Part shown: piece by piece, positions 4,825 through 28,223 of the stretch
Layout: every line of letters begins with the position of its first letter
Position numbering within the stretch: the first letter of the stretch is position 1
Assembly (NCBI RefSeq): GCF_001571385.1
Contig: NZ_BCNW01000001.1
Coordinates: forward strand, 1-64,000
DNA from: Methanofollis ethanolicus
Lineage (GTDB): Archaea; Halobacteriota; Methanomicrobia; Methanomicrobiales; Methanofollaceae
Length of the DNA: 64,000 bases
Direction: 5' to 3'
Made by a program: the position numbers and the translations under genes
Notes under the pieces: model-generated
Databases searched by the model: none
The model's input: the letters and a program-made list of their open reading frames with translations, nothing else
Told to the model about the DNA's origin: nothing

Positions 4825-6593
4825 GCCATTCCCGCCTTCAGTCCAGAGAATTCGTCCTTCATTGCCTTCAGGATCCGTTCGAGTTCAGGCTTGTAGTCCT
4901 GGACGAACTTGATCTGCGGCAGGTCGTTCTTCGCCTTGATCGCCAGGATCTGGGACGGCATCACACCGGCGGCGTGGGCCGCGGAGGAGAGGTCGGCGTA
5001 GGCGCGGATCGCCTTGAGGATGTCGAGCTGCTTCTCGAGGGAGCAGTAGGTGTCGACAGCGTCGAAGGCGTTCTGCTGCAGGAAGATCTCACGGAGCATA
5101 CGGGCGACCTCGATGGTGATCTGTTCCTCCTCGGGGAGAGCGTCGGAACCGACGAGCTGCACGATCTCCTGGAGTTCTGACTCCTTCTGCAGAACATTCA
5201 TCGCCCAGCTGCGGAGGGGGTTCCACTCTGGCGAGATGTTCTTGTCGTACCACGTGTTCAGGACGTCGAGGTACAGGGAGTACGAGTTGAGCCAGTTGAT
5301 CGCAGGGAAGTGACGGCGCTGCGAGAGCTTGGCGTCGAGTGCCCAGAAGACCTTCACGATACGGAGGGTGTTCTGGGTGACCGGCTCCGAGAAGTCGCCG
5401 CCCGGCGGCGAAACCGCACCGATGACCGTGACCGAGCCTTCAAGGTTGTTGAGGGTCGTTACACGGCCGGCACGCTCGTAGAACTCGGAGAGGCGGGCTG
5501 CAAGGTATGCAGGGTAGCCTTCCTCGCCAGGCATCTCTTCGAGCCGGGAAGAGATCTCACGCATGGCCTCTGCCCACCGGGAGGTGGAGTCGGCCATCAG
5601 GGAGACGTCGTAGCCCTGGTCACGGAAGTACTCGGCAAGGGTGATACCGGTGTACACGGACGCTTCACGAGCTGCCACGGGCATGTTCGAGGTGTTCGCG
5701 ATCAGGATGGTCCGCTCCATCAGCGGCCTGCCCGACTTCGGGTCCTCGAGCTCCGGGAACTCGGTCAGCACCTCGGTCATCTCGTTGCCGCGCTCGCCGC
5801 AGCCGATGTAGACCACGATCTGGGCGTCAGACCACTTTGCAAGCTGCTGCTGGGTGACAGTCTTTCCCGAGCCGAAGGGGCCCGGAATTGCGGCGGTGCC
5901 GCCCTTGGCGATCGGGAAGAGCCCGTCGAGAATCCTCTGCCCGGTAACGAGCGGGATGTCAGGGTTCATCTTCTCGGTCACCGGCCGCGGCACACGAACC
6001 GGCCACTTCTGCATCAGCTGGATCTCTGAGCCGTCTTCAAGGACACAGACAGTCTCTTCGACGGTGAAAGACCCGCCCTTGATGCTCTTGACCACGCCGC
6101 CCTTCATGTTGGGCGGGACCATGATCTTGTGGAGGATCGACGTGGTCTCCTGAACCGTGCCGACGACCATGCCGGGCACGACGTGATCGCCAGCCTTCAC
6201 GACCGGGACAAAGTCCCACTTCGTCGTCCTGTCAAGGCCGGGTGCGGTCACACCGCGCTCGATGAAACTGCCCATCTTCTCCAGGAGCACTTCGAGCGGC
6301 CTCTGAATGCCGTCGTAGATGCTCTTCAGCAGACCGGGGCCGAGCTCGACCGCGAGCGGCATGCCTGTGTTCACCACCGGTTCGCCTGGCCGGATGCCAT
6401 CGGTGGCCTCATAGACCTGGATGATGACGTTCTCACCCGAGATCTTGATGACCTCGCCCATCAGCTCCTCGTTCCCGACCTTGACCACATCGAACATGTG
6501 GGCGTCGAGACCGACGGCCGTGACGACCGGGCCTGAAATTCTCTTGAGCACTCCTGTCGAAGTGCCTGTCTTTGACGCTGCTTTTACTTCCAC
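4821..6593 (-). CDS. atpA: A-type ATP synthase subunit A (catalytic)
   Basis: 590 residues. Catalytic ATP-making subunit of the membrane-bound ion-driven synthase. P-loop GPFGSGKT at residues 238-245, preceded by the A-subunit-specific non-homologous insert (about 120-190, including [13 protein letters not shown]). The motif [21 protein letters not shown] and the catalytic-glutamate region [13 protein letters not shown] are present. Its start overlaps the atpF stop by 10 bases. No intein is present, unlike in some archaeal atpA genes. Confidence 0.98.
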
Positions 6594-6886
6594 AGATCAA
6601 CACCGACCGATCTCTTTATTCTCTCCCGCATGGAGAGGCCTCCCTCTTCCTCACCGACCGCTATCACTGTCGGCCTCACGGACTCCTCAAGCTGGCTCCG
6701 GAGGCGCAGGGGGAGCCTGTTCATATCGCTGCCACTCAGCACCAGGATGCCCACCGACCCGTCCGAAAGGACGTTGTGGATGGCGTTTTTCAGGGCATCG
6801 TCGCTTTCCGCGGCGATTGTCTTCTGAATGCCCGCAAGCCTGAACCCGATGACGAACTCATTGCTTCCGATAACTGCAATCTCCAT
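6584..6886 (-). CDS. atpF: A-type ATP synthase subunit F (central stalk)
   Basis: 100 residues with a small Rossmann-like fold: [20 protein letters not shown] is typical of the V/A-type F subunit. It sits on the central stalk with D. Two bases separate it from the atpC stop, and it overlaps atpA by 10 bases. Confidence 0.95.
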
Positions 6887-6888
6887 TC

Positions 6889-7944
6889 TTACATCACCAG
6901 GTAACTCTGAATGCGTTCATTCGGCAGGTTGTACTCCTTCCCCCGGGCAATGGCACGGAGGTTTGCAACCTCGTACTTCTTCATCTCAAGGTAGGCAAGG
7001 ATCGGAAGAACCGAGAAGGCATAGAGCTTGGAGAGCCTTTCCATCTGTTTGAGCTCGAACTTCGTCAGCATGACCTCGATCTCGTGGATCGAACGCTGCT
7101 GCTGGAGTTCGTCGAAGACTGCGACGAGTTCGGGGTCCCGCGTCTTCTTCTTCGCGGCGTCGACGAATTCGTCAAGGCTCTCGATCGTGCTCATCCGCAT
7201 CAGTTCATCGACCGTGAAGGCCTTGCCGCCCGGGACGAGCAGATCCCTGATCTCCTCGCCTGCATGCGCGGCGCGGAAACGGAAGAGGTTCATCAGGTTC
7301 CTGAGGTCTATCTCCATCTGGATATAGTTCAGGAAGACGTTGCCGCCCTTGATGCCGCCCTTCGCGTCCGAGATCATCTGGACATAGAGCTGCTTGTAGA
7401 GCTCGTTCTCGAGCTTCGCAAAAGAGCCTGTCTCCAGGGCCTCGTGCAGCCCGGCAGAGAGCACAGGGCCCAGGCGCCGGTCCTTGAGAGACTCCACGAT
7501 CCTCTCGGGGGAGTCTTCGCCAAGGAGCCGGTCGAGGACGTTCTTATCAAGCTCACCCGCGGGGATGAGCACTTCCTTGATCTTCCCGGCCTTCACGCCC
7601 TGGACCTTTCCTCTGAGGATGGTCAGGACATTCTGGATATCCCACCGGCGCAGGTAACTCTGCACGAACCGGATCAGTCCGGACGGGGTGATCTTCAGGA
7701 TCTCCTGATACTCCTTTGCAAGGTTCCAGGAGAGGCCGACCTCGATGAGGTTGATGCCGGAGAAGGACGAACCGAGTTCGTCGATCTCCTTCTTGTACTC
7801 GGTCTCGCCGATGAACCTGGTGATCTCGGGCAGGCTCATGTTGAGCATCCGCAGGTACTCTTCCCGCGGGATCAACTTTGCCTTGCGCACACGCATGCGC
7901 GTGGAGACGTAAATGTATGGGGCAGGACCCCCTACGTCAGCCAT
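6889..7944 (-). CDS. atpC: A-type ATP synthase subunit C (rotor adaptor)
   Basis: 351 residues, homologous to the V-ATPase d subunit; links the central stalk to the membrane c-ring. Seen: [25 protein letters not shown] at the N-terminus (positions only approximate) and the typical [11 protein letters not shown] helix. Mostly helical, no membrane segment. Thirteen bases after atpE. Confidence 0.94.
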
Positions 7945-11171: not shown

Positions 11172-11651
11172 TTATTCATCCACCAGAGCACGGTTCACAC
11201 ATATATACAAGATCGTGCACCCCGGAAGAAGGCCTTCAAGCGTGACAGAATCCTCCCCACCCCGGAGGACAAGGCCTGCAAGTTCTGCCCCTGAACAGAG
11301 GAGGCGCTGGTCGGGGTGGGTGCCCCGCACAATCCCGCAGGAGAGGGTGATCTCCGGGGCGGCCGAAACGACCATGGGGATGCGTTTCACACCGGGATGG
11401 CCCTTCGGAAGGGCGACGACCGGATAGTGGTGGTCGCGGACAAGGAGAAGAAGCATCGCCGCCGCCCGCACCGAACCCCCCTCAGGGGCCGAGACGCAGA
11501 CAAGGTCACCGGGCCTGACCGGTTCGCAGTACTCGTCGTCCGCCGTGTCGACAACGAGGGCAAAGCGGTCGCGTGCACGGCCTGCAAGGAGAAAAGAAGA
11601 TGAGGGAGACCTGATAAGGACGAACTCGTCCTCACCCGGGTGGAGGATCAT
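11172..11651 (-). CDS. Conserved hypothetical protein upstream of ATP synthase operon
   Basis: 159 residues from ATG 11651, which overlaps the stop of the upstream zinc-ribbon gene (ATGA). No family recognised with confidence. No membrane segment or signal peptide. It has an N-terminal beta-rich part (MILHPGEDEFVLIRSP, FLLAGRARDRFALVVDTA), the phrase VRPGDLVCVSAPEGG, then an alternating strand/helix body, and ends in TILYICVNRALVDE. Coupling to a zinc ribbon suggests the two proteins act together; what they do cannot be told from the sequence. Confidence 0.7.
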   Translation of the reverse strand: MILHPGEDEFVLIRSPSSSFLLAGRARDRFALVVDTADDEYCEPVRPGDLVCVSAPEGGSVRAAAMLLLLVRDHHYPVVALPKGHPGVKRIPMVVSAAPEITLSCGIVRGTHPDQRLLCSGAELAGLVLRGGEDSVTLEGLLPGCTILYICVNRALVDE

Positions 11652-11800
11652 GTCTGCTCGACGTCCTCCGACTGGCAGGAGGGGCAGACCGGGTGTTTTC
11701 CGACCGTTTTGAAGTGTTCTCCGCATTCCCTGCATTTGTAGGTCTTTCCCTTCACCCGCTCCTCCAGTTCGATATCCGTGCCTCCGCCAATAGAGCACAT
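11648..11800 (-). CDS. Small zinc-ribbon protein (50 residues)
   Basis: ATG at 11800 opens a 50-codon frame (MCSIGGGTDIELEERVKG...) that ends in a TGA overlapping the next gene's ATG. Two CxxC knuckles: C23/C26 (YKCRECGEHF) and C39/C42 (PVCPSCQSED). This is a classic rubredoxin-like zinc ribbon. A longer frame starting at GTG 11798 reads through the same DNA in another phase and is probably spurious. Possible role: RNA- or protein-binding partner of the downstream gene (inference). Confidence 0.75.
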   Translation of the reverse strand: MCSIGGGTDIELEERVKGKTYKCRECGEHFKTVGKHPVCPSCQSEDVEQT

Positions 11801-11872: not shown

Positions 11873-13813
11873 TCACACCAGCAGGTTGAAGGCGACGAGC
11901 GCGACGACAAGCATCACGGCGGCATGTTTCACGCCGGCCCGCACTGAACCCTCGCCCATCTTCCCGGCGACAAGACCGGAGAAGACTGCCTGGACGAGGC
12001 AGACATGGTAGAGAAGGCGCTTGAAAGGGAGGAGGGCAGCAGTGCCGAAGCCCGGCAGCACCCCTTCCATCTCGCCCGCCGAGGCCGCCACATCGCCGAG
12101 GACAGGGAGGAACTGGGAGGCGATGACGACGACGACGAAGATAAAGACGAAGAAGGCAAGGTAGATGACCGCAAGGTAGAGGAGCATCGCCGAGGACCGC
12201 TCCTCCCTGAGCACTGCCGACATCCAGGCGTCCTTTGCCGCTATGGTGAGGATCTCCGAGATGTTCCCGCTCATCCGCGTCGCCGTCGTGATGAGGGTGA
12301 CAGACCGGGAGACGGCCGGGGTCCGCACCCGCCTCTCGAAACGGACGAGCGCATCGGAGACGCTGGCGCCCCAGGCAACGTCCCGGTTGATCCGCCCGAT
12401 CTCGTACGAGAGGACGCCGAGGTTGGTCCGCACCAGGATGACGAGTGCCTGGGCGAGGGTCAGCCCGACCTGGTTCATCCCTGCCATCCTGGAGAGAAAC
12501 TCCGGCACCCCGGCCTCGATGCCCCTGACCTTCCTGTTCCAGAGGCCGTAGAAGACCGCATAGGGAACAAGGATGACAAGGAAGGCGATGACGACATGGT
12601 CGTCGACCAGGGCGATGGCTGTCTCTGCCGATAGTCCCGCGGGCAGGGAGAGGAGGACGGCGCCGAGGTAGACCAGTGCGGCCGGGAGGGAGACGAAGAA
12701 GGTCAGCCCGGGGTCGAGGACAAATGCGCGGAAGGGGTTGCGCAGAAAGGCCCTGACCCCCCTGACCCGGTCGTACTGTGCCAGCTGTGCAAACAGCGGT
12801 TCTTCATCCTCCTCCCCGACAACCCTGATATCTTTAAAGTGGTCGAGCACCTTCACGCGGGTGTAGCGTTCGGGCACGTCCTCCCTGACCGAGATGAGGT
12901 CGACGAAGAGGAGCATGATCAGGGAACCTATCGGGATGAGCACGTATGTGATGAGGGACAACTGGGTGACCGCCGACCCGCCGACCAGCCCCATCACCAC
13001 CATCACGATGACGAGGAAGAGGGGACCAGCCACAAAGACGGTCACATAGGCCTCACCGACGAACTCAAGGGTGGCGATGAACTGTTTCTGCTCGAACCTC
13101 GCCTCGTCCTGGAAGATCCGCACCTGCGTCTCCAGGTAGGCGGAGAGGTTCCCCCCGCTCTCGACGACAGAGAGGAGGTTCTCCAGGAAATCCTTCATTT
13201 TCACCGAGGGCGTCGTCCGGGCCAGGTGCCTGATGGCGGTGAAGACGTCTGAGCCGAAGTAGTCTGTGTCCCGGACCACCTGCCTGAACTCCAGGGCGCT
13301 CTCTCCATATATCCCGGCGTTCTCCGAGAGGGACCGGAAGATCTCCATCACCTCGGCGCCGCCCCGGCGCATCGCATAGATGTACGAGACGGCGTTGTGC
13401 AGGGAGAGGTTGATCTTCGTTGCCCTGTTGCTCTTCTCGACCGCGGGGTACCTGAGGAGGAGGGCATAGGCGAGCAAGCCGCCGATCAGGGCACCGGCAA
13501 AAAAGGCAAGGACGCGCAGGAGGTACCAGAGGGGCGTGCCGCTGCCGACGTCGGGCAGGGGAATGGAGAGGAGGTTGACGATCCCCTCGCCGACCGGGAG
13601 GACTGCCATCCCGGAGAGGATGAATGCAACGATGCCGCAGAACAGTCCGGCACAGAGGGAGATGAGGAGGGCCCTCTGCACATAGGCCCTGACGGTGATG
13701 CCCATGCGGGCCGAAATCAGGTCCTGCCTGATGGTGCCGTACTTCACCGGGTCCCGCCTGATCAGGGCGCCGGCGACCCGCCGGAAAAGGCCGGGGCCGG
13801 GCGCCGGGGTCAT
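11873..13813 (-). CDS. Type II secretion F / TadC-FlaJ family membrane protein
   Basis: 646 residues with two T2SSF-type modules in tandem (about 60-300 and 370-640), each with membrane helices around a cytoplasmic helical domain (for example EIFRSLSENAGIYGESALEF and NQVGLTLAQALVILVRTNLG). Such proteins are the membrane platform of archaeal type IV pili and archaella. The ATG overlaps the stop of the ATPase gene by 4 bases (ATGA), so the two form a motor/platform pair. No pilin or prepilin peptidase gene is seen nearby. Could serve adhesion pili or a secretion system; sequence alone cannot say which. Confidence 0.88.
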   Translation of the reverse strand: MTPAPGPGLFRRVAGALIRRDPVKYGTIRQDLISARMGITVRAYVQRALLISLCAGLFCGIVAFILSGMAVLPVGEGIVNLLSIPLPDVGSGTPLWYLLRVLAFFAGALIGGLLAYALLLRYPAVEKSNRATKINLSLHNAVSYIYAMRRGGAEVMEIFRSLSENAGIYGESALEFRQVVRDTDYFGSDVFTAIRHLARTTPSVKMKDFLENLLSVVESGGNLSAYLETQVRIFQDEARFEQKQFIATLEFVGEAYVTVFVAGPLFLVIVMVVMGLVGGSAVTQLSLITYVLIPIGSLIMLLFVDLISVREDVPERYTRVKVLDHFKDIRVVGEEDEEPLFAQLAQYDRVRGVRAFLRNPFRAFVLDPGLTFFVSLPAALVYLGAVLLSLPAGLSAETAIALVDDHVVIAFLVILVPYAVFYGLWNRKVRGIEAGVPEFLSRMAGMNQVGLTLAQALVILVRTNLGVLSYEIGRINRDVAWGASVSDALVRFERRVRTPAVSRSVTLITTATRMSGNISEILTIAAKDAWMSAVLREERSSAMLLYLAVIYLAFFVFIFVVVVIASQFLPVLGDVAASAGEMEGVLPGFGTAALLPFKRLLYHVCLVQAVFSGLVAGKMGEGSVRAGVKHAAVMLVVALVAFNLLV

Positions 13814-15387
13814 GGGAACAGCCCTGAGAGGTCGTCGAGATGGTCGAGGACGGCGGTGCGGTTGGTGGCGAAGGCCTGGACGATCCGGGAGACACGGCGG
13901 TAATCGACGATCCCCTGCACCTTCATCGCTTCAAGGACACGGATCCGCTCCATGATGTCGGCTTCAAGCCTCCCGGAGTCCCAGCCTCGCGTCTCGACGG
14001 CGTGGGCGTACACCAGGGACCGGCCCGTGTACTCCATCGTGTCGCGCACAGGGTCGTATGCAAAGACCGTGTTCACCCTGAGGTTCCCGGTGCCGGGGTC
14101 CACGCCTGCGACTTCCACGATCTCCTGGCAGCGCCGCACCCTTTCTGTCCCCTGGTAGGTGAGCGCCTGGACGCTGACGATGTCGAGGGCCTGGACCATG
14201 TTCCTCGGGACGTTCAGGGGTTCGTTTTCGAGACGGTGGATGGCGGCGTCGACGGTCCCGGCATGCATCGTGGAGAAGGTGGTGTGCCCGGTGTTCATTG
14301 CCTGGAAGAGGGTCTGCGCCTCCTCGCCCCGCACCTCGCCGACGATGATGAACTCGGGCCTCTGGCGCATCGCCGCCTTGAGAAGGTCGAACATCGAGAT
14401 GGAAGACGATTCTTCGCCCGAGAGGGTGTCCCGGGTCACCGAGGCGACCCAGTTCTCGTGGAAGAGGGTGATCTCCCGCGTATCCTCGATGGAGATGACC
14501 TTCGCGAGGGGCGGGATGAAGAGGGAGACGGCGTTGAGCGAGGAGGTCTTTCCGCTCGCCGTCCCGCCGATAAAGAGGAGGCTCTTGTTGTTCTCGATCG
14601 CCGTCCAGAAATAGGCGAGTTCTTCCGCGGAGAAGGTGCCGAGGTCGAGGAGTTCGATGGGCGTGAAGGGTTCGGCCCGGAACTTCCTGACCGTGAAGGA
14701 GGTGCCCCGCGTCGAGACTTCGCGTCCGAAGGTGAGCTGGAGGCGCGAGCCGTCCGGGAGGGTGGCGTCCACGACCGGGCTCCCCACCGAGACATGTTTT
14801 CCCGAGCGCTGGGCCAGCGAAATGGCAAGGGAGTCCAGTTCCTCCTCGGCAAAGACAAGGTTCGTCCTGATGTTCTTGTGCCGCCGGTGATACAGGAAGA
14901 CAGGGACGCCGACGCCGTCGCAGGAGATGTCCTCGATATCCGGGTCCTTCATCAGGCCGTCCAGGCGGGACCAGCCCAGGAAATCCCGCACCAGGTAATA
15001 CTCGACCTTTGCGAGGGGCAGGCGGTCCAGGGAGACCCCATACTCCCCGATGAGGGCATGCGTCCGGCTGAGGAGGACCCGGCGACGGTCGGCGATCATC
15101 TCCTCCTCGGAGAGGATAAGGACGTCACGCAGGTCCTCATATAGCCTCTCAAGGATCTCGTGCTCAAATTTCGAGAGCACGGGCTCGAAGAGATGGTATT
15201 CAGCCTGCCCGCTCTGCCTGTCCCGGACAATGGCGACGAGGGACCGGCCCTCCTCCACCCAGTACTGCTCGACAGGATCCAGGCCGTTTGGAATCTCGGC
15301 TTCCACAAGAGCGGGATCTGTTCCGGGATCGTACTCCTGAACAGTTTCCGGGCCTCCCGACCCTTTTCGAAAAAACGGCAGATGCAT
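13810..15387 (-). CDS. Type II/IV secretion system ATPase (GspE/TadA/VirB11-like)
   Basis: 525 residues from ATG 15387 (MHLPFFRKGSGG), with GGAG 7-10 bases upstream; the open frame extends further but crosses the divergent promoter. P-loop GGTASGKT at 274-281, Asp-box EDTREITLFHENW (301 on), Walker B-region PEFIIVGEVRGEEAQTLFQAMNTGH and the HAGTVDAAIHRLEN His-box. The N-terminal part (about 60-250) is the usual N-terminal domain ending in SGKHVSVGSPVVDATLPDGS. It powers pilus assembly through the adjacent TadC/FlaJ-like protein. Confidence 0.93.
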   Translation of the reverse strand: MHLPFFRKGSGGPETVQEYDPGTDPALVEAEIPNGLDPVEQYWVEEGRSLVAIVRDRQSGQAEYHLFEPVLSKFEHEILERLYEDLRDVLILSEEEMIADRRRVLLSRTHALIGEYGVSLDRLPLAKVEYYLVRDFLGWSRLDGLMKDPDIEDISCDGVGVPVFLYHRRHKNIRTNLVFAEEELDSLAISLAQRSGKHVSVGSPVVDATLPDGSRLQLTFGREVSTRGTSFTVRKFRAEPFTPIELLDLGTFSAEELAYFWTAIENNKSLLFIGGTASGKTSSLNAVSLFIPPLAKVISIEDTREITLFHENWVASVTRDTLSGEESSSISMFDLLKAAMRQRPEFIIVGEVRGEEAQTLFQAMNTGHTTFSTMHAGTVDAAIHRLENEPLNVPRNMVQALDIVSVQALTYQGTERVRRCQEIVEVAGVDPGTGNLRVNTVFAYDPVRDTMEYTGRSLVYAHAVETRGWDSGRLEADIMERIRVLEAMKVQGIVDYRRVSRIVQAFATNRTAVLDHLDDLSGLFP

Positions 15388-15426
15388 GGCTGACTCCGTG
15401 TTGCTGAAGGGTAGATCGAAGATCCT

Positions 15427-15436
15427 ATTTATCTCT
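15427..15436 (-). promoter_or_regulatory. TATA box for the secretion ATPase gene
   Basis: GATAAATAGG on the minus strand, about 45 bases upstream of ATG 15387, in a 138-bp divergent intergenic gap. Confidence 0.5.
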
Positions 15437-15497
15437 ACTTTTTCGGTCAGGCGCGGGCAAGGTCGTCTGGCACAAAGTGTAACCCTATCTGCTACTC

Positions 15498-15503
15498 TTT
15501 TAT
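15498..15503 (+). promoter_or_regulatory. TATA box deciding a leaderless start
   Basis: TTTATA lies 23-28 bases before ATG 15526, the distance expected for a leaderless archaeal transcript. ATG 15514 would lie upstream of the transcription start. Confidence 0.55.
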
Positions 15504-15525
15504 AGCACGGCGAATGAAGCTTCGC

Positions 15526-16350
15526 ATGGATGTGGAGGCACGAGTTGACGTGAGGATCCCCACCGGGATCGGATCCCTCGATCCTGTCCTTGACGGCGGC
15601 GTCCCCCCGGGATCGATGGTCCTGCTCCTCAGCGAGATCGGGGCAGGAGGGAGCGACTTCGTCCGTACCGCGGCGATCGCCCTCGCCCGGATGAAGCGCG
15701 AGGGACTGAGCCCGGCGCCCCGTGAGGTCCTCTACATCACAATGACACGACTCAAGGAGGACGTCCTCGCCGAGGCAGCACTCTCGGTGAGTCCTGAGAT
15801 GTATCCTCTCCTTGAGGGTGGCGTCCATTTCGAGGATCTTTCCGAGGTCTATTTCGATGCAAGCGTCGTGCCCCCGGAGTGGTACTCGCAGGGCGACGTG
15901 CTCTCCCGGATGCAGAAGCATACCCGGCGGGAAAGCCTCCTCACCGAATTATCGGTCGTCCTCTCCGGGGCAGAGGCGCAGAGCGTGATCATCATCGACT
16001 CCCTCACCGATCTCGCCGCTCAGGCCGGGACAGGCGAGCGCTGGGAGGCCTTCAGCAGTTTCCTGCGGGGCCTCCAGAGGGTTGCGAAACGCTGGGGGTC
16101 GGTGGTCTACCTCCCCCTCACCCGCGGCGTCCTCCCTCCCCTGCAGGAGACCGAGGTCCAGGACTGCGCGGATGCTGTCTTTCTCTTTGCATGGGAGGAG
16201 ACGCAGGGGATGCGACGGCAGAGGACGATGTCTATCCAGAAGTTCAGGGGTGTGATGCCCCACCTGGAGGAGCGGAACCTGGTGAAGTTCGCGATACGGA
16301 TCACGGCAGGGAACGGCTTCGAGGTCTCCAACATCAGGGTGGTCATATAA
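15526..16350 (+). CDS. KaiC/FlaH-like RecA-fold protein with degenerate Walker A
   Basis: 274 residues from ATG 15526 (leaderless start; ATG 15514 adds four residues). The KaiC/RadA opening is clear (RIPTGIGSLDPVLDGGVPPGS), but the P-loop reads SEIGAGGS at 36-43: the canonical lysine position (42) is Gly and the first Gly is Ser. Walker B-like SVIIIDS is at 153-159. So the fold is RecA-like but ATP hydrolysis is doubtful. The stop overlaps the next gene by one base (TAATG). Head-to-head with a pilus ATPase/platform pair, which recalls FlaH next to FlaI-FlaJ in archaellum loci. A regulatory or structural role on the pilus motor is inference. Confidence 0.8.
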   Translation: MDVEARVDVRIPTGIGSLDPVLDGGVPPGSMVLLLSEIGAGGSDFVRTAAIALARMKREGLSPAPREVLYITMTRLKEDVLAEAALSVSPEMYPLLEGGVHFEDLSEVYFDASVVPPEWYSQGDVLSRMQKHTRRESLLTELSVVLSGAEAQSVIIIDSLTDLAAQAGTGERWEAFSSFLRGLQRVAKRWGSVVYLPLTRGVLPPLQETEVQDCADAVFLFAWEETQGMRRQRTMSIQKFRGVMPHLEERNLVKFAIRITAGNGFEVSNIRVVI

Positions 16351-17051
16351 TGGAGGAGGAAGCGAGGGTCATGTTCGGGATCGAGGGGCTCGATGCGATG
16401 CTCGACGGCGGCCTCCTCGAAAAAAGTGTCTGCGCCATTGTCGGGACATACGGCACGGGAAAGACGACGTTCGCCCTTCAGTTCGTCTATGAAGGGCTGA
16501 AGCAGGGGGAGAAGGCGGTCTTTATCTCCCTCGACGAAAGGGCCGAGATGATCTACAAGGATATCGAGAGGAAGGGATGGGATCTGGACACCTACAGGGA
16601 TACGTCCCTCTTTGTGATCAAGCTCGACCCGACAGACTTCACCGTCGCGGTCAACCAGATAAAAAACGAGCTTCCAAGACTTATCAGACAGGTCGGGGCT
16701 ACACGGGTCGTCATCGACCCGATATCCCTCTTCGAGGGCCTCTTCACCGAGGAGGCGACGCGGCGGCACGAACTCTTCAGGTTTGTCGAGATGATGCGGG
16801 ACGAGGCGTGCACCCTCATTCTCACCTCCGAGACAAGTCAGGACAACCCCTATGCGAGCAAGTACGCCCTCATCGAGTATATGGTCGACACCGTCATCCT
16901 CTTGCGGTACGTGCGGCCGTCCTCGATCTCCGAGGTTCACCCCGCCGCCGAGGTCGTGAAGATGCGGGGCTCGAACCACTCGCGCGAGATCAAGCCGTAC
17001 GAGATCCAGCGTGACAGGGTGCAGGTGTACTCGGAAGCGAATGTGTTTTGA
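16350..17051 (+). CDS. KaiC/FlaH-like RecA-superfamily ATPase
   Basis: 233 residues. Intact Walker A GTYGTGKTT at 32-40 and Walker B-like RVVIDPIS at 119-126; the opening RVMFGIEGLDAMLDGGLLEKS is the single-domain KaiC/RAD55 signature. One KaiC domain, no second. Overlaps the preceding degenerate paralogue by one base, so both are made from one transcript and may form a hetero-oligomer. Ends IQRDRVQVYSEANVF. Archaeal FlaH has this same size and fold; the neighbouring GspE and TadC genes make a FlaH-like partner role plausible. Confidence 0.88.
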   Translation: MEEEARVMFGIEGLDAMLDGGLLEKSVCAIVGTYGTGKTTFALQFVYEGLKQGEKAVFISLDERAEMIYKDIERKGWDLDTYRDTSLFVIKLDPTDFTVAVNQIKNELPRLIRQVGATRVVIDPISLFEGLFTEEATRRHELFRFVEMMRDEACTLILTSETSQDNPYASKYALIEYMVDTVILLRYVRPSSISEVHPAAEVVKMRGSNHSREIKPYEIQRDRVQVYSEANVF

Positions 17052-17732: not shown

Positions 17733-17996
17733 TCAGACGGTGATCCCCATCAGGTTGAGGAGGACGAGGAGGACCACCCCGATCACGCCGCCGAGGGCGC
17801 AGATGATCACCGTCGCCCAGGAGATGGCAAGGTCGGTCCCGCCGATGTAACCCATCAGGTGGAAGATGTTGATGAGGTACAGGCAGATGAGGCCGACCAC
17901 GGCATTGATGATCAGGGTCATCCCCTCCTTCACGAAGTAGTAGAGGAGGGCGGCAACTGCGATCACCACGGCGATGGTAATGATGGTTTCTATCAT
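17733..17996 (-). CDS. BofA-like small membrane protein
   Basis: 87 residues with three hydrophobic helices (IITIAVVIAVAALLYYFV; LIINAVVGLICLYLINIF; WATVIICALGGVIGVVLLVLL). Length and the NAVVGLICLYLIN segment fit archaeal members of the pro-sigmaK processing inhibitor BofA family. Archaea lack sigma-K, so the bacterial function does not carry over. It ends the transcript with tldE, whose stop abuts its start region (17996/17997). Confidence 0.75.
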   Translation of the reverse strand: MIETIITIAVVIAVAALLYYFVKEGMTLIINAVVGLICLYLINIFHLMGYIGGTDLAISWATVIICALGGVIGVVLLVLLNLMGITV

Positions 17997-26857: not shown

Positions 26858-27538
26858 TCACTTCTGCACGATCTCGCGGATCGACTGAGATCCCCCTTTT
26901 TTCTCCGCCGCCAGCGCTGTCACGATGCCGTGACAACGGCAGGCGGTTCCAACAATCATCGGATCGCCCATTTCTGATGCTTCAAGAACGGCGATCACGT
27001 CCGGCCCGGAGAGGGCACCTATGCCCGGGGCCAGTTGCAGGCTTTCAAGGATCCATGCTGCCGGGAAGGCCTGCCTCAAAAGGGCAAAAAGAGGGACGGG
27101 ACGTGTTATCCCTGTGGCCGGGCAGACCTGCGGTGCCGCACAGGCAGAGAGGCACCTTCCCGAAGGGTTGTACGAGACGACAAGAGACCCCTCTCCGGCA
27201 GAGACAAGAATACCAAGTGGAATACGGCAGGAAAGGTGATCAGTGCCGTCGATGTCGGGTACCCGGAGGGAGTGGGCCTGCACAAGGGCCGCCGCGACAT
27301 GGAGAGGAGCGGTGGGGAAGACGTAGGCAGGCCTTTCAGCGAGGATCACTCCGAGAGCGACGGCGATCCCGCCCAGGACAAGCACACACTCGCAAGAGCG
27401 GAGGGACTCTGCCGCGAGGCAGGTCGGGTCGGGATCGACGACCGCACACTGCAGGCCTCGGTCCAGAAGGTAACGGGCGCAGGCAACCCCATACACCCCC
27501 CCACCGATGACCACGCCGTCGAACATGGATGCCATCAT
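26858..27538 (-). CDS. Rossmann-type (FAD/NAD-binding-like) protein with cysteine cluster
   Basis: 226 residues from ATG 27538, which overlaps the upstream stop (ATGA); ATG 27526 (MFDGVVIGGG) is an alternative. N-terminus is a dinucleotide-binding strand-turn-helix (DGVVIGGGVYGVACARYLLDRG, then VVDPDP). The body has SLVVSYNPSGRCLSACAAPQ with CPATG, a Cys-rich patch (C-x3-C-x5-C), then GDPMIVGTACRCHGIVTAL. It is too short for a normal FAD oxidoreductase. The last ~13 residues are encoded by the antisense of a copied 3' end of the PyrE-like gene, so the natural C-terminus may have been altered. Family not recognised. Confidence 0.6.
   Translation of the reverse strand: MMASMFDGVVIGGGVYGVACARYLLDRGLQCAVVDPDPTCLAAESLRSCECVLVLGGIAVALGVILAERPAYVFPTAPLHVAAALVQAHSLRVPDIDGTDHLSCRIPLGILVSAGEGSLVVSYNPSGRCLSACAAPQVCPATGITRPVPLFALLRQAFPAAWILESLQLAPGIGALSGPDVIAVLEASEMGDPMIVGTACRCHGIVTALAAEKKGGSQSIREIVQK
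26863..26898. repeat. Copy of the 3' end and T-run of the PyrE-like gene
   Basis: About 33 bases (TCTGCACGATCTCGCGGAT..., then GACTGAGATCCC and T6) match 25568-25606 with two substitutions and a small indel. Confidence 0.7.
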
Positions 27539-28119
27539 CCGAGATCAGTCACCGGCGCGATCCTCGGGGGCACTGTCCGCGTGACCTTCACCGCCGGGCC
27601 CCGCGGCGGGGCGACGGTGAGGGTGAAGGTCTCACGGGGTTCAAGGGCGCGGGACGGCCAGACCCTGATGACGAACTCCTCGCCAGGTTCGAGGAGGTCG
27701 TCATCGTCGGCGGCGCCGATGGGAAGGGCGTTCAGCCTGTCGGTGATCGTCCAGTTCGGCGGGAGAGGGCTGGTGCTGCAGGTCTCCGAACAGTCTCGCG
27801 TGGCGAAGAGGACAGATGCCTGGCTCATGTTGACGGCTCCGACCGATCCGGGAAAGAGCCTGAGGGAGATGGAGACCGAACCGATCCTGCCGGGATCGGC
27901 CGGGTCGCCAAACCCTTCGAGAGGGGTATCGACGAGGAGGGCCGCCGAAGAACCGGTAAGGGCGTCGGGGACGATGCCGACAGGGTTGTCCATACCCGGG
28001 CCTGTATAGAGATTGAAGGCGATGCCGGCCCCGCCAAGAATGACCAGAAGAAGGATACCCTGTTCCAGCCTGGTGGGGGCAAGGCTGTGATCCATACGCA
28101 GCTTTCGGTGCCGATCCAT
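27535..28119 (-). CDS. Archaellin-like secreted protein
   Basis: 194 residues from ATG 28119 (MDRHRKLRMDHSLAP); ATG 28095 is also possible. A hydrophobic helix follows a short basic/polar start: TRLEQGILLLVILGGAGIAF resembles the class III signal and N-helix of archaellins (TGLEAAIVLIAFV-type). The C-terminal half fits the archaellin domain: LNALPIGAADDDDLLEPGEEFVI (read in two parts), ETFTLTVAPPRGPAVKVTR and the ending PPRIAPVTDLG. There are no other archaellum genes here. Could be a minor archaellin, a pilin or a surface fibre protein. Its stop overlaps the Rossmann/Cys gene. Confidence 0.72.
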   Translation of the reverse strand: MDRHRKLRMDHSLAPTRLEQGILLLVILGGAGIAFNLYTGPGMDNPVGIVPDALTGSSAALLVDTPLEGFGDPADPGRIGSVSISLRLFPGSVGAVNMSQASVLFATRDCSETCSTSPLPPNWTITDRLNALPIGAADDDDLLEPGEEFVIRVWPSRALEPRETFTLTVAPPRGPAVKVTRTVPPRIAPVTDLG

Positions 28120-28223
28120 AAAGAATCTCTGCAGACCGGATCTCTGCGCCAGAAGGCATTTCCCCCGGAGGAGGAAGCACACACTCTGCCCCACTCAGAG
28201 CAGGTGGGGAGAACACCGGACCA

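Follow-up and report, generated by a model that had tools for sequence, protein, structure and literature searches.

A type IV pilus-class motor of Methanofollis ethanolicus is encoded beside a pair of KaiC-like proteins, one of which lacks a canonical Walker A motif

Gene layout and the motor

The window analysed here, a stretch of 64,000 nucleotides, is the start of the 2.7 Mb genome of Methanofollis ethanolicus, and the locus lies at 15.5 kb within it. Four genes, referred to as J, I, H1 and H2, are flanked by an A-type ATP synthase operon on one side and by pmbA-tldD on the other. The original prediction described a secretion ATPase and a membrane platform divergent from two overlapping RecA-fold genes, and we found all four in this arrangement:

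11172-11798, minus strand: P5, conserved uncharacterised gene, 3' of J
11873-13813, minus strand: J, FlaJ/TadC-type membrane platform of 646 aa with two T2SSF domains (PF00482, 117 bits)
13813-15387, minus strand: I, GspE/VirB11-type secretion ATPase of about 524 aa, type IV pilus class (PF00437, 119 bits)
15388-15513, no strand: divergent intergenic region between I and H1, 126 bp, with a TTTTATAG box at 15498-15505
15514-16350, plus strand: H1, putative KaiC/ArlH-fold pseudo-ATPase of 278 aa (PF06745, 31.7 bits)
15631-15660, plus strand: degenerate P-loop of H1 (S-E-I-G-A-G-G-S-D-F)
16240-16248, plus strand: KxR motif of H1 (K243-F-R245), KaiC-type trans-acting finger
16350-17051, plus strand: H2, KaiC_arch_3 (TIGR03880) ATPase of 233 aa

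The stop codon of H1 and the start codon of H2 share 1 nt, and the stop of I overlaps the start of J. The 703-aa open reading frame called for I runs too far upstream of the real start of this gene. For H1, the true start is probably the ATG at 15526 (residue 5), because this agrees with the starts in relatives and with the TTTTATAG box at 15498-15505. The gap separating I from H1 ranges from 103 to 3067 bp in relatives, with a median of 426. The conserved gene order at this locus is A-type ATP synthase, P5, J, I, H1, H2, BofA, PmbA and TldD. P5, which has no Pfam match, has a counterpart near J with 45-57% identity in most relatives, and it still lies near J in family f6 despite intervening genes. 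The BofA-like membrane protein (17733-17996, minus strand; PF07441, 45.7 bits) is kept in most relatives, where it separates H2 from PmbA/TldD.

I carries an intact Walker A motif (GGTASGKT) in a T2SSE domain (PF00437, 119 bits) and reaches 387 bits against the NCBIfam ArlI model, under the cut-off of 550. In the tree of I proteins it belongs to a separate Methanomicrobiales clade, which includes the unlinked copies of genus g13; the genome's own ArlI branches far outside this clade, and its second pilus ATPase falls elsewhere too. The best NCBIfam models for J are ArlJ/FlaJ and UpsF, both below cut-off. Archaellum genes with a true ArlH (269 bits) and archaellins are located at 1.82 Mb on contig C1, 1.8 Mb from the locus. 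That the four genes are themselves the archaellum motor was ruled out, since ArlH, ArlI and the archaellins are encoded there. The score and tree position of I, together with the linkage described below, support a second filament motor, distinct from the archaellum and paired with a two-protein KaiC/FlaH-like module.

No filament subunit genes were found at the J-I-H1-H2 locus. The earlier remark that no pilin gene lies nearby holds for this locus, but 23 PF07790 pilins above cut-off are encoded in the genome, all outside it, and in one family an archaellin-family gene follows J. According to passages of a survey of archaeal pili, archaea often encode pilins away from the motor operon (PMC4858521). 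The exceptional family is f6, Methanomicrobiaceae as assigned through the named locus L158, in which an archaellin-family gene is located directly 3' of J on the same strand in 7/7 f6 loci retrieved and in L158; five copies scanned against PF01917 gave 67-95 bits:

L068, 1921-2514, strand of J: archaellin-family gene 3' of J
L069, 1266-1841, strand of J: archaellin-family gene 3' of J
L070, 1598-2176, strand of J: archaellin-family gene 3' of J
L071, 1586-2173, strand of J: archaellin-family gene 3' of J
L079, 9658-10245, strand of J: archaellin-family gene 3' of J
L084, 1864-2475, strand of J: archaellin-family gene 3' of J
L085, 2182-2766, strand of J: archaellin-family gene 3' of J

Such a gene is absent after J from all other loci among the 105 with J. 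It is likely a filament subunit of the I/J motor in family f6. Three of the f6 loci have a cation-efflux-like ORF (name read from the sequence) between the archaellin gene and P5. Two I-H1 gaps of other genomes were inspected for pilins: that of L058 holds a NosD/beta-helix protein and no pilin, and that of L074 shows none, one of its ORFs having no Pfam match in the scan and a larger one lying outside the scan. Within the window, an ORF of 219 aa at 27535-28194 (minus strand) begins with a hydrophobic helix and matches the archaellin domain at 26.2 bits (cut-off 29.5); elsewhere in the order, genomes contain ORFs of about 200-234 aa that match it just as weakly. It is possibly an extra filament subunit beyond those counted.

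A degenerate ATP site in H1 and an intact one in H2

The Walker A lysine had been noted as missing from the first RecA-fold protein, and this was confirmed: the P-loop of H1 reads LLLSEIGAGGSDF in place of the expected GxxxxGK[ST], and that of H2 reads AIVGTYGTGKTTF. We compared 102 H1 sequences, comprising 59 rows from the order Methanomicrobiales (the H1 of the window being represented twice), 16 from other lineages and 27 termed haloarchaea-like, a label inferred from their acidic proteins. GK[ST] occurs in 0/102, and the lysine itself in 5/102, each time without the following S/T. The GxG glycines and the Walker B aspartate are present in 102/102, and an acidic residue (E/D) and a phenylalanine past the P-loop are almost invariant. 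Where KaiC has its catalytic EE, the H1 proteins of the order have T-[RK]. A decaying pseudogene or a sequencing error was ruled out, as the loss is universal while other sites are invariant. Judged from this conservation pattern, H1 appears to be a maintained pseudo-ATPase constrained by something besides its own catalysis, and the lack of GK[ST] in every homologue fits a protein that cannot bind nucleotide in the normal way.

The KxR motif of H1 shows a different distribution. In KaiC, K224 and R226 of this motif reach the gamma-phosphate of the ATP bound by the neighbouring subunit (PMC9599734). The first position of the motif in H1 is K or R in 59/59 sequences of the order, the second is R in 58/59; in the other lineages we counted K in 15/16 and R in 12/16. 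The haloarchaea-like proteins have lysine in 0/27, with Q, E or S at this position, and arginine in 26/27. A mixed oligomer with H2 would best explain such a motif in a protein without an ATP site of its own, because H1 keeps a finger directed at a neighbour though its own site is dead.

H1 matches the general KaiC family weakly (PF06745, 31.7 bits). It consists of a single RecA-like domain and does not have the tandem arrangement of KaiC. Its AlphaFold2 monomer (pLDDT 85) is most similar to KaiC and archaeal RecA-like ATPases, with a TM-score of 0.75, by target length, to FlaH of S. acidocaldarius (4yds). H2 scores 324.9 bits against TIGR03880 (KaiC_arch_3; cut-off 249.45) over positions 1-224 of 224. 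It has an intact P-loop, the acidic pair (DE/EE), Walker B and a KMR finger, and in its orthologues of the order K38, E63, D123, K204 and R206 are conserved in 46/46. The AlphaFold2 monomer of H2 (pLDDT 88) gives TM-scores of 0.8-0.88 to the CI domain of KaiC.

An identity of the pair with FlaH could not be upheld, since H1 and H2 reach 32.1 and 37.8 bits, respectively, against the NCBIfam ArlH model with its cut-off of 215, and the true ArlH lies elsewhere in the genome. In a tree that sampled H1, H2, ArlH, KaiC CI, KaiC CII and RadA-type proteins, all H1 sequences formed one clade with a support of 100, as did ArlH; the KaiC CI and KaiC CII domains likewise formed one fully supported clade each. 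In this tree H2, which has a single domain, stands beside KaiC CI-type proteins, and H1 and ArlH are separate clades whose union, when constrained, is neither favoured nor rejected (p-AU 0.45). H1 is a family of its own, as it forms a single clade and has weak KaiC and ArlH scores.

Linkage, co-occurrence and loss

Using I, H1 and H2 as markers, we followed the layout across the order in 159 genomes. H1 is present in 119 of these, 104 of which have the exact divergent arrangement of I and H1-H2, so that the pair is linked to the pilus genes in most relatives, contrary to what would have spoken against the original prediction. Exceptions are mostly contig ends or belong to one genus. Among the H1 genomes that depart from the layout, six have I on another contig (five of g13 and one fragmented assembly), two of g13 have I at a distance on the same contig, three are without a listed I match beside the pair, and four show gene or contig breaks.

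The 40 genomes of the order without H1 have no H2 above the family cut-off, with the exception of G158 (on a short contig), and their best match to I is only the more distant paralogue. Genera g2, g6, g11 and g13 each contain genomes with and without the set; the set of H1, H2 and I was therefore lost as a unit more than once. Family f8 has I homologues and is without H1 and H2.

Genus g13 is probably Methanocorpusculum. Its H2 has a Walker A of the GR type and has lost the acidic pair, and the H1 of genome G038 is broken by an in-frame TGA. The H1-H2 module looks to be decaying in this genus. The pair has moved away from I/J in the following two loci:

L065 (genome G038), 5546-6430: H1-H2 pair of g13
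L075 (genome G049), 5833-7411: H1-H2 pair of g13

The divergent arrangement of I and H1-H2 also occurs in other classes (L178, L179, L180, L181, L183 and L185), and it is found without detected flanking genes in L061, L062, L074, L178-L181, L183 and L185. The pair stands without nearby I/J in L182, L184, L186 and L220-L222. Genome G180 has two H1-H2 pairs, one adjoining I/J (L183) and one alone (L182). Near the pair, genomes of family f14 encode one more KaiC-like protein, whose P-loop is intact (L178, 3985-4854; L179, 8563-9486).

Across 393 genomes of the phylum, H1 was detected in 187, H2 in 177 and both in 176 (176/188), these being raw counts that ignore shared ancestry, so that the Fisher p-value computed from them does not stand for a probability. 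Nine of the 11 genomes with H1 alone belong to g13 and have a diverged but adjacent H2. Outside the order, 120 of 123 genomes have both H1 and H2. In the haloarchaea-like genomes, H1, H2 and the motor occupy three separate loci, and a search of these for H1 or H2 next to pilus genes returned none; H1 has a beta-RFAP-synthase-like gene and a gene for a coiled-coil protein in its vicinity, and H2 a NAD kinase-like gene (names read from the sequence). Given this separation from pilus genes, the pair is not strictly a pilus component.

Possible regulation of the motor and relation to known systems

These results suggest that H1 and H2 are a paired regulatory switch. We propose a KaiC/ArlH-like regulator of the type IV pilus-class motor with split labour between its two subunits, because the ATP site of H1 is dead in every homologue while that of H2 is intact and the two reading frames overlap, and because of the arrangement with I, the joint absence of H1, H2 and I, and the co-occurrence of H1 with H2. 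Against the proposal speak the haloarchaea-like genomes, with their three separate loci and an H1 finger deprived of its lysine, the lineages and g13 genomes in which the pair stands away from I/J, and family f8 with its I homologues but neither H1 nor H2. That H1 pairs with H2 is highly probable, and an action of the pair on the motor is somewhat probable; the proposal as a whole we consider evenly poised between right and wrong.

In the proposed mechanism, H2 would bind ATP and probably hydrolyse or exchange it. H1 would be unable to use ATP in its own site, and its KxR finger could reach the ATP of the neighbour. The two proteins are translated together, and their likeliest assembly would be a mixed dimer or ring, in which H1 would have a structural or gating role and the nucleotide site would be that of H2. 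ArlH binds the C-terminal domain of FlaI in a nucleotide-dependent manner and stimulates it at a 1:1 ratio (PMC6011876). By analogy we infer that H1-H2 may dock on the motor ATPase I as ArlH does on the C-terminal domain of ArlI, and that docking would switch the I/J-driven assembly of a filament built from subunits of other loci. The part played by H1-H2 towards I/J would match that of ArlH towards ArlI/ArlJ.

The strongest competing reading sees in the pair a general switch of signalling or gene expression, comparable to the haloarchaeal KaiC-like CirA or GvpD, which would act on transcription or on a partner protein and not on the motor. A regulator of the I/J operon would usually sit where the pair does, divergently beside it; in haloarchaea-like genomes the two are always paired although their genes lie apart from those of the pilus, and CirA influences motility and cell shape in Haloferax (PMC13286277). 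However, the joint loss with I across several genera and the linkage in several classes favour a tighter tie to the motor, and a Pfam scan of H1 and H2 showed no DNA-binding domain. We consider such a switch possible, though rather doubtful. It is unlikely that H1 binds nucleotide in an unusual manner as a non-hydrolysing sensor, as does SaFlaH, which binds ATP without hydrolysing it (PMC6011876): the P-loop glycines and the aspartate are invariant in 102/102 despite the lost lysine, but this lysine is gone in 97/102, the remaining five are without the S/T, and the Walker A substitution K39A alone strongly reduces nucleotide and FlaI binding of PfFlaH (PMC6011876). Least probable, and very much so, is that the pair and the motor are mere neighbours in a conserved stretch without a functional tie, since, although the flanking genes too are kept in order, H2 and the I orthologue are both missing from genomes that have no H1, and I is found with H1-H2 in other classes and in loci without the flanking genes.

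The split-labour regulator may be one instance of a broader arrangement. Tentatively, and with more doubt than confidence, H1-H2 could be an ancient heteromeric KaiC ring throughout the phylum, in which the dead subunit gates the ATP site of the live one in trans, serving as a general switch that is tied to pili in methanogens and unlinked, with an altered finger, in haloarchaea. If the two proteins do form a mixed ring, they would provide a natural test of KaiC-type signalling, namely of which subunit senses, which one hydrolyses and how a trans finger is used without a site in cis. The finding also names a definite gene pair that can be deleted in a tractable haloarchaeon. Of the archaeal pilus or secretion system with a two-component FlaH-like regulator that had been envisaged, the motor and its linked module stand; the FlaH identity and a strict tie to pili do not.

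The locus resembles the ArlH/FlaH system in placing a single-domain RecA/KaiC fold near a secretion ATPase and a FlaJ-type platform, with 4yds among the best matches of H1. It differs in having two proteins, of which H1 is without Walker A, in a motor of another clade, and in its location outside the archaellum (arl) operon, with the true ArlH encoded elsewhere. H2 is a member of KaiC_arch_3 (TIGR03880), a family that has been named without a function and that here has a constant dead partner. With cyanobacterial KaiC, a CI/CII hexamer, H1 and H2 share the CI-type fold and the KxR motif; in contrast to KaiC they are not tandem domains, and one subunit type has no ATP site.

Like the euryarchaeal type IV pili described in passages of PMC4858521, the present system has a VirB11-type ATPase (I) and a TadC-like platform (J), with pilins encoded at other loci; it differs by the H1-H2 module and, in one family, by the archaellin gene that follows J. 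According to the same passages, Methanomicrobia could co-transcribe the KaiC families arCOG01172 and arCOG01173, treated there as ATPases, with VirB11/TadC (Makarova et al. 2016, PMC4858521). This is very probably the association seen here, and the link between the motor and KaiC-like proteins is thus not new. Neither a dead partner nor obligate pairing nor the KxR pattern is mentioned in the passages concerned, and in the openly readable literature there appears to be no report of the universally dead partner, of its pairing or of the retained finger. FlaH has been described as exclusive to archaellum operons and absent from archaeal pilus operons (PMC6011876); here, a pilus-class motor appears to have a KaiC/ArlH-like partner of its own, a pair with one subunit kept dead throughout the phylum.
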